Virus record (IMG/VR): IMGVR_UViG_3300044765_000027
Coordinates: 1-22,564 of that record
Strand: one strand, 5' to 3'
DNA: 22,564 nucleotides
DNA from: a virus
The notes under the pieces were generated by a model, which was not told where the DNA came from, did not search any database, and worked only from the letters and a program-made list of their open reading frames with translations. The position numbers and the translations under genes are program-made. Positions 20,970 through 22,564 of the stretch are shown here, piece after piece (within the stretch, counting starts at the first letter, position 1; every line of letters begins with the position of its first letter).

Positions 20970-21158
20970 CTACTCTATTTCTCCGTCTTCTTCAATAATT
21001 TCTTTCGGGTATTCGTCGGCATCGGCGGCAACCTTCGAACGTTTTTGATGGGCCGCCGCATTCCAGGTTGAGCGCAAGATCGCCTCCTTATGTTGCATCG
21101 CGATGCGCTCGTCATCCGGCAAATCGCTCCATTTTTTCGGTCTTCGGCGTCGCCTCAT
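20970..21158 (-). CDS. Small basic/acidic hypothetical protein (62 aa)
   Basis: Not recognised. The start ATG at 21158 overlaps the upstream stop as ATGA, and GAGGT lies 6 bases before it, so the gene is the last of a coupled chain. The N-terminus is strongly basic (RRRRRPKKW), the middle has a DLPDDERIA turn and a helix, and the last 16 residues are acidic (EEDGEIE). A longer frame reaching 21542 is antisense-like, Arg-rich shadow sequence of the upstream gene and is not used. The gene is followed directly by two hairpins that end the transcript block. Confidence 0.55.
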   Translation of the reverse strand: MRRRRRPKKWSDLPDDERIAMQHKEAILRSTWNAAAHQKRSKVAADADEYPKEIIEEDGEIE

Positions 21159-21577
21159 CGCGATACCTCGATCAAATTGCGGTATTCGAGCATCGGGCGT
21201 AGGAGCGCCTTGGCCCTGGCGTACTCGTCGGCGAGCGACCCGGGCAGACGGATGGACGACCACACCTTTGCGCCGCTGAATCGATCGCGCATTTCGGTGT
21301 TGATGGCTATGCGTGCGCGCAGGTCGATCGACGCAACGCAGAAATTCACCGCCTCGGAGATCGCGTCGCGCGCACGATCCTCTGCGGCGTCGGCGAGCTC
21401 GACCGAATCGCGCCATCCTGATCGGTACTCGCCGAAGCCGGCGGCCGTATCGGCATAGCCTTTGACCGGCTCCGACTCGTGCGACCACCACCACCAATCC
21501 GCGAGCAAGTCGTCGATCTCGTCGTTTCCGCCCATGGTGCACCCCGTTTGCCTCGGCTCAAGCGTCGCCAGGTCCAT
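21155..21577 (-). CDS. Phage protein of unknown function, layout like Q-type late antiterminators
   Basis: 140 residues from ATG 21577, which overlaps the upstream stop as TGATG and has GAGGAG 9 bases ahead; an upstream in-frame ATG at 21664 would run deep into the preceding gene. Visible features are an aromatic N-terminal segment (LLADWWWWSHESEPVKGY), a central helical stretch with AEDRARDAISEAV and RARIAINTEMRDRF, and a C-terminal WSSIRLPG followed by a helix (DEYARAKALLRPMLEYRNL). Similar small proteins recur in betaproteobacterial and Pseudomonas phages between recombination genes and terminase. The order tryptophan-rich start, central helices, final helix, and the position just before the terminator and late genes, recall Q antiterminators, but no diagnostic motif proves this. 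Function therefore remains open. Confidence 0.65.
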   Translation of the reverse strand: MDLATLEPRQTGCTMGGNDEIDDLLADWWWWSHESEPVKGYADTAAGFGEYRSGWRDSVELADAAEDRARDAISEAVNFCVASIDLRARIAINTEMRDRFSGAKVWSSIRLPGSLADEYARAKALLRPMLEYRNLIEVSR

Positions 21578-21801
21578 CAACCCAAGCTCCTCATGAAGGC
21601 GCGATGCGCTGCGCTGTCGAATCCGGGGATCTCGTCTGGGCGCGCCCTTTCGACCAAATCCCATCCTTCGTTAGGTCCGACGATCATCGGATTGCTGATC
21701 TGGCGCTGACCGCCATATGCGTACTCGCCCTTCACCGCTGGCCGCTGCACCATCGCCGCCTCGGGGTTCTCGCGCGTGCGCGCGTCGATTTCGCTGCACA
21801 T
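21577..21801 (-). CDS. Small hypothetical phage protein (74 aa)
   Basis: I do not recognise the family. The protein is soluble, with no membrane segment, and ends in a helix-prone FDSAAHRAFMRSLG tail. Two ATG codons are close together, at 21807 and 21801. A strong GGAGG lies only 2 bases before the first but 8 bases before the second, so I take 21801 (start MCSEIDARTRENPEA). Its stop codon shares one base with the start of the next gene (TGATG), which implies translational coupling. The 78 bases upstream hold no gene, only a bulged GC-rich hairpin around 21859-21880 without a U-tract. Confidence 0.6.
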   Translation of the reverse strand: MCSEIDARTRENPEAAMVQRPAVKGEYAYGGQRQISNPMIVGPNEGWDLVERARPDEIPGFDSAAHRAFMRSLG

Positions 21802-21879: not shown

Positions 21880-22290
21880 TTATTCGATGACGCGCCAGTC
21901 GTCGGCGAGGCAATCCGTGACGCTCGGCACCCATGTGCTCACTCGCTCATCCACGGTCTTGAGCGCGAGATATGCGTTGTACGGAACCATCGAGCCTTCG
22001 CCGAAATGGGCCTTCGCTGCGTCCGTCTGAACCGGATATGAAGCGGCCGGAACGAGATAGACGAACTGGCCCTTGCCGTTCCACCCAGCCCGCGCGACGC
22101 GTGCGCCCTTCTTCATCGCCTCGATCGCCAGGCCGAACGTCATACCGTCGCTACGCCGGTAAGCCTCCTCGAAAACGTCCTTGGGCGACCAACTCGTATA
22201 GCCGTCGGCGTAGTGCACGGCGTAACCGTCCTTGCCCGCTTGCTGGTGTGGAAATGCATGAACGATCTTCGTGCCGATGTATTGGTCCAT
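21880..22290 (-). CDS. Tad2-like (DUF2829) protein with an extra N-terminal module
   Basis: 136 residues. Residues 50-136 match the DUF2829/Tad2 pattern: MTFGLAIEAMKKG (50-62), RAGWNGKGQFVY (67-78) and the C-terminal W120, D126, A129 and DDW (130-132). Tad2 from phage SPO1 is known to bind and sequester the gcADPR signal of Thoeris defence; that role here is inference from family. Residues 1-46 form a separate module (QYIGTKIV ... GYTSWSPKDVFEEAYR) that occurs in other phage proteins and whose function I do not know. I chose ATG 22290 because GAGGAAG sits 5 bases upstream; a longer in-frame start at 22323 would overlap the resolvase gene by 25 bases and lacks support. The cell location should be cytoplasm. 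It lies in the early/middle block between the resolvase and small unknown genes, a common place for accessory phage genes. Confidence 0.8.
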   Translation of the reverse strand: MDQYIGTKIVHAFPHQQAGKDGYAVHYADGYTSWSPKDVFEEAYRRSDGMTFGLAIEAMKKGARVARAGWNGKGQFVYLVPAASYPVQTDAAKAHFGEGSMVPYNAYLALKTVDERVSTWVPSVTDCLADDWRVIE

Positions 22291-22298
22291 CGTCTTCC

Positions 22299-22564
22299 TC
22301 AGGTCAAATTGCGCTGAGCCCATCTCGCGATGAGCAGGCTTTCAGCGCGGTTGTGGTGCTTCGCCAGTTTCAGCGGAGCGTCGGGGTACAGGTTGCGAGC
22401 CATTGCGAGGCATGCGCTCTTGTCGCTCGTGAGGCCATAGAAGCGTTTCCAGCGCTGCGGCGTGACATAGACCATGCTCAGGTCGCACAGGATGGCCACG
22501 GCCTCCAGAACGCCCCGCGTATGCGCCAGAGCGCCCATCGTCTGCACTGACGAGCCGCCGAGCA
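22299..22564 (-). CDS. RuvC-like Holliday-junction resolvase, C-terminal part (cut by window edge)
   Basis: The visible 87 residues resemble the C-terminal half of phage RuvC-family resolvases, which cut branched DNA before packaging. What is seen: a Gly/Ser-rich stretch followed by a helix (LAHTRGVLEAVAILCDL), the strand and turn VTPQRWKRFYGL with a following DK, and the family-typical ending KHHNRAESLLIARWA, where the Asp/Glu of RAE would be the last acidic active-site residue. The reading frame is open to the right edge, so the true start and the first catalytic Asp lie outside the window; a GTG at 22547 is internal, not the start. The stop overlaps the ribosome-binding site of the next gene, so the two are probably co-translated. 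Family assignment is from motif recall, not a search. Confidence 0.75.
   Translation of the reverse strand, partial: LGGSSVQTMGALAHTRGVLEAVAILCDLSMVYVTPQRWKRFYGLTSDKSACLAMARNLYPDAPLKLAKHHNRAESLLIARWAQRNLT

Follow-up and report, generated by a model that had tools for sequence, protein, structure and literature searches.

We found that a minus-strand gene of a phage contig (21880..22290) joins a Tad2-family domain, in which the ligand-loop residues are retained, to an N-terminal module of about 45 residues (the SWSP module). We consider it probable that the product is a sponge for an ADP-ribose-type signal made by TIR enzymes, most likely the His-ADPR of type II Thoeris, with the N-module playing a constant supporting role. 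The contig is an IMG/VR virus record (22.6 kb, 62% G+C), and the whole 22,564-nucleotide stretch analyzed here (the window) features terminase, SU10-type portal and major head protein genes on the same strand as the Tad2-like gene; a second IMG/VR contig (L002) carries an identical copy of the latter. The gene adjoins a RuvC-like Holliday junction resolvase (22299..22562, minus strand, truncated at the window end; phrog_1770, E 8.2e-16), which ends 8 bp upstream of its ATG. The first-pass annotation had spotted this neighbor and taken it as a hint of function; however, it recurs in some relatives only, and the adjacency says little about what the Tad2-like gene does. The 136-residue open frame likely starts at the ATG at 22290 and stops at 21880, given the Shine-Dalgarno-like GAGGA (22296..22300, minus strand) that overlaps the resolvase stop codon and the DNA conservation with related contigs that begins 24 bp upstream; starting instead from an in-frame ATG at 22323 would lengthen the protein by 11 residues. 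The surroundings of the gene showed no sigma-70-like promoter, and PADLOC returned no match.

The C-terminal part of the protein (residues 50-135; 21886..22143, minus strand) had been flagged as Tad2/DUF2829-like, and profile searches bear this out: it matches PF11195 over the full profile (1-73 of 73) with E 2.9e-25 and 89 bits (curated cut-off 25), and ModTad2 with E 7e-29. The AlphaFold2 model of the whole protein (mean pLDDT 90.8) is predicted to share the fold of SPO1 Tad2, and all 24 PDB structures that Foldseek matched to it below E 0.001 are Tad2. The landmarks by which the domain was initially recognized are likewise all in place, namely GWNGKG (residues 69-74; 22069..22086, minus strand), W120 and DDW (residues 130-132). 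The gcADPR pocket of Tad2 includes the beta1-beta2 loop, and the pocket segments of Tad2 comprise this loop, the beta3-beta4 loop, beta4, the beta4-alpha3 loop and alpha3 (PMC12043709). In the window protein, these segments correspond to GWNGKG, KTVDE, VSTW and VPSVTDCL, which are well kept in the sequence alignment with ModTad2; GWNGKG, KTVD, W120 and PSxxDxL are the same in both proteins, and the stretch WVPSVTDCL (residues 120-128; 21907..21933, minus strand) corresponds to the beta4-alpha3 ligand segment. Across the alignment of relatives, W70 of the ligand loop is found in 41/41 and G69 in 38/41. With family membership and ligand-loop residues both retained, a role in phage counter-defense, as initially suggested, would be the best reading of the gene.

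As to the ligand, the first-pass annotation pointed to gcADPR by way of Tad2. Its placement in the family that includes the SPO1-type fold stands, but the closest characterized relative is ModTad2, which binds His-ADPR, and not SPO1 Tad2, which binds gcADPR. ModTad2 (from a Myroides odoratus prophage; 9eib with His-ADPR, 8v3e apo) is the best PDB sequence match (9eib/8v3e) at 103 bits, with HgmTad2, SPO1 Tad2 and SptTad2 at 51-63 bits, and among solved structures the predicted fold is again closest to 9eib, which is titled "ModTad2 in complex with hisADPR" (E 6e-10; target TM 0.83). Identity over the domain is 49/87 (56%) to ModTad2, 47% to SPO1 Tad2 (over fewer aligned residues, 75), 45% to HgmTad2 and 43% to SptTad2. 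The window protein and ModTad2 also have in common the variable lobe VPxxxYxxQTDxxKxxFGE (residues 76-106; 21973..22065, minus strand), which differs in the other solved Tad2 proteins: 14 of its 31 positions are identical to ModTad2, against 7-8 in SPO1 Tad2, HgmTad2 and SptTad2. The lobe of the window protein has two more residues than that of ModTad2, a protein of 88-89 aa that lacks the SWSP module. A tree of 74 Tad2 domains places the query together with ModTad2 in a clade of 33 rows (support 98/86), to which SPO1 Tad2, HgmTad2 and SptTad2 do not belong; within it, ModTad2 sits on a long branch that joins other rows and is not the direct sister of the query. Since the alignment has just 90 columns and SPO1 Tad2, though outside this clade, has a long branch and an unsure exact place, assignment to the ModTad2 subgroup is probable rather than certain. 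MoTad2 binds His-ADPR and thereby inhibits type II Thoeris, whereas SPO1 Tad2 binds gcADPR and acts on type I (PMC13299392). Accordingly placed by its nearest relative, the window protein probably has the type II Thoeris signal His-ADPR as its ligand, but because ligands differ among Tad2 proteins, 56% identity to ModTad2 does not fix its specificity.

The N-module (residues 1-45; 22156..22290, minus strand) is of the SWSPKDVFEEAY / SWSPKDVFEEAYR type. From a 62-sequence alignment and a model with pLDDT 95.8, it is predicted to form a small beta-barrel of four strands and one helix. No match was found among the Pfam and NCBIfam families, no significant solved relative by PDB sequence profile and nothing in the PDB by Foldseek at E below 0.001 (best E 0.5). 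The weak Foldseek matches include many SH3/Tudor/KOW-like barrels (e.g., parts of Mfd and the UvrD Tudor domain), and those among BFVD structures are mainly unnamed phage proteins plus one DUF1653 protein; we therefore limit the fold prediction to a small beta-barrel. The module is represented in PHROGs families of unknown function and also occurs by itself in proteins of 73-78 aa (e.g., in Erwinia phage phiEaP8 and Pseudomonas phage HHBS14_1). Since ModTad2 and SPO1 Tad2 work without such a module, it is probably dispensable for ligand binding.

The fusion itself had been judged an uncommon architecture, a reading that the phage records rule out. A single family, phrog_872, spans both parts of the window protein (residues 8-136), and the query matches 400 of 50,697 phage records, 114 of which, including gp49 of Escherichia phage N4, match 80% or more of its length at a single site. 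These Tad2-like relatives are mostly annotated as unknown, but the copy of the fusion in Shigella phage Moonfish already bears the name "Thoeris anti-defense 2-like protein". N4 gp49 and phrog_872 have the same SWSP plus Tad2-like architecture with a divergent Tad2 lobe (~40% identity overall to the window protein). Acidovorax phage AP1 UIS65504.1 also has this architecture, with 63% identity across 90% of the protein's length, and differs in its longer N-module (~76 aa) and in adjoining a gp49_66 gene, with no annotated resolvase beside it.

The first-pass remark that the N-module is also seen in other phage proteins holds well. A scan with the module only retrieved 504 IMG/VR relatives, and the best 80 of these yielded 51 non-redundant full proteins, in which the module is fused to a Tad2-like domain (37), crAss001_48 (6), gp49_66 (4) or the Acb2/Tad1 hairpin (4). 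The Tad2-like fusion is thus the commonest context of the module, with the proviso that the scan profile was built from Tad2-fused proteins, which may inflate the 37/51 share. The Acb2/Tad1 hairpin is a sponge family distinct from Tad2. A clear fusion of it to the N-module is a 161 aa protein (L139:992-1474) that matches PF24729 at 52.8 bits (cut-off 27), and an enterobacterial-looking group (L113, 1007-1597, and relatives) carries a hairpin fragment scoring 26.4, just below that cut-off. The hairpin also follows the SWSP module in L122 and L138. Uncharacterized domains follow it in L110, L125, L145 and L174 (gp49_66; PF13876) and in L111, L112, L161, L163 and L180 (crAss001_48; PF21825). Triple fusions combine the module with Tad2 and crAss001_48 in either order (Tad2 first in L121, crAss001_48 first in L143), and in L174 the module and gp49_66 are succeeded by a continuing frame that starts like a Tad2 domain.

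Comparison of related contigs shows that the two parts of the protein have parted company. L003-L005 align to window positions 22314-22150 at ~97% DNA identity, a similarity restricted to the start region and the N-module: the module and the 24 bp leading up to its ATG are about 91-100% identical per 45-nt step, and identity then drops from residue 46 to reach 51% across residues 61-75. The Tad2 domain behind this near-identical module belongs to a different subclade of the tree, with GWNGKG replaced by APWGAAG and W120 by F. Conversely, in L012 the N-terminal region is of another, PGDYG-like kind, whereas the domain that follows is close to the query. With the module kept and the domain diverged in the former, and the domain kept and the module different in the latter, module and domain recombine in both directions, and phages seem to keep the front end constant while swapping the binding domains that follow it. 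Tad2-like domains after a PGDYG-family-like N-terminal region (...KGERYPCKPDIFKQTY; weak Pfam score) were observed in L012, L015 and L021. Pairwise identity across 41 relatives averages 0.59 for the N-module, 0.73 for the GWNGKG loop and 0.26 for the lobe; the front end and core are conserved and the lobe changes. Elsewhere in the window, 43 bp (21592-21550, inside the orf 21155-21664) are 100% identical to L003 and L004, between otherwise diverged contigs, which suggests a recent mosaic exchange.

We propose that, when a host TIR enzyme makes an ADP-ribose-type alarm molecule during infection, the C-terminal Tad2 domain would bind and hold it, most likely as His-ADPR, and the Thoeris effector would consequently stay inactive. 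If it assembles as Tad2 does, the protein may form a homotetramer with two ligand sites. The SWSP module would probably serve assembly, stability or localization and not ligand choice. The occurrence of this module in front of the Acb2/Tad1 hairpin, itself a sponge domain, fits a counter-defense role. To look for suitable hosts, relatives and Thoeris components were surveyed: a near-identity search found nothing beyond short terminase stretches (81-94 bp) shared with Sulfitobacter phages, and relatives of the Tad2-like gene lie in Burkholderia (60%) and Caballeronia (55%) contigs. In nine genomes with relatives, a ThsB_TIR search gave one weak broken match; in the family of the relative-bearing Burkholderia genome, ThsB_TIR was present in 11/200 genomes, and ThsA_Macro, the effector domain of type II, in 2/399. 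One genome of that family (G190; locus L197) has a type I-like Thoeris locus, in which a SIR2-SLOG ThsA-like protein adjoins ThsB_TIR proteins. Both Thoeris types are thus present but not common in one plausible host family, a distribution that neither supports nor refutes the ligand identity. The rarity of ThsA_Macro and the fact that ModTad2 acts without an N-module count against the His-ADPR sponge proposal.

An alternative that we regard as unlikely, yet the most serious of those considered, is that the protein, still a Tad2-family sponge, chiefly binds gcADPR (a cyclic ADP-ribose isomer) or a CBASS cyclic dinucleotide, like SPO1 Tad2, HgmTad2 and SptTad2. The fold is the same, and all solved Tad2 proteins have the core loops GWNGKG and W..S..D.L..DW. 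SPO1 Tad2 (Gp34.65; 8sme, 8smf, 8smg) departs from the window protein in its lobe, its position outside the supported clade and its lack of an N-module; HgmTad2/AcrIIA7 (8kbi-8kbm) and SptTad2 (8wjd) retain GWNGKG and the DW end. In favor of this alternative are also the type I-like pair in the Burkholderia family and a review that has Tad2 binding cyclic dinucleotides via an insertion between beta2 and beta5 (PMC12043709). However, the window protein has a ModTad2-like lobe without the long insertion of HgmTad2 and SptTad2, which also read WLASQTD where it has WVPSVTD, and SPO1 Tad2, HgmTad2 and SptTad2 all fall outside the supported clade.

Some relatives are recorded as "anti-CRISPR protein" (e.g., in Escherichia phages Huey and Louie), and HgmTad2, deposited as AcrIIA7, matches at ~60 bits; yet AcrIIA7 is not the nearest relative, which is ModTad2, the similarity at 45% identity is family-level only, and the AcrIIA7 structures 8kbj and 8kbk were solved with nucleotides, making an AcrIIA7-like activity (inhibition of type II-A Cas9) very improbable. 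Slightly less remote, though still improbable, is a housekeeping protein with an ADP-ribose- or nucleotide-binding domain, e.g., in nucleotide metabolism beside the resolvase: phages widely carry members of this family, most of them annotated as unknown, and the resolvase adjacency is repeated in some relatives, but the characterized proteins with a Tad2 domain are sponges, and the hypervariable lobe and the domain exchange look like an arms race. The Tad2-family sponge for a TIR-made signal, most likely His-ADPR, remains our preferred reading.

Taken singly, the gene is one more predicted His-ADPR-type sponge. Its module, undescribed and with no Pfam entry, connects Tad2 and Acb2/Tad1, both known sponge families, to two functionally uncharacterized phage domains. 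We tentatively raise the possibility that SWSP is a general adaptor before exchangeable signal-binding domains (Tad2 types, the Acb2/Tad1 hairpin, gp49_66 and crAss001_48); if so, gp49_66 and crAss001_48 would also be counter-defense domains, and the module would add a common function, such as oligomerization, localization or a second ligand site. Guilt by association via the SWSP module thus gives a testable list of candidate counter-defense genes, and the swap of ligand domains behind a near-identical module is a plausible route by which phages may change the alarm signal that they block.
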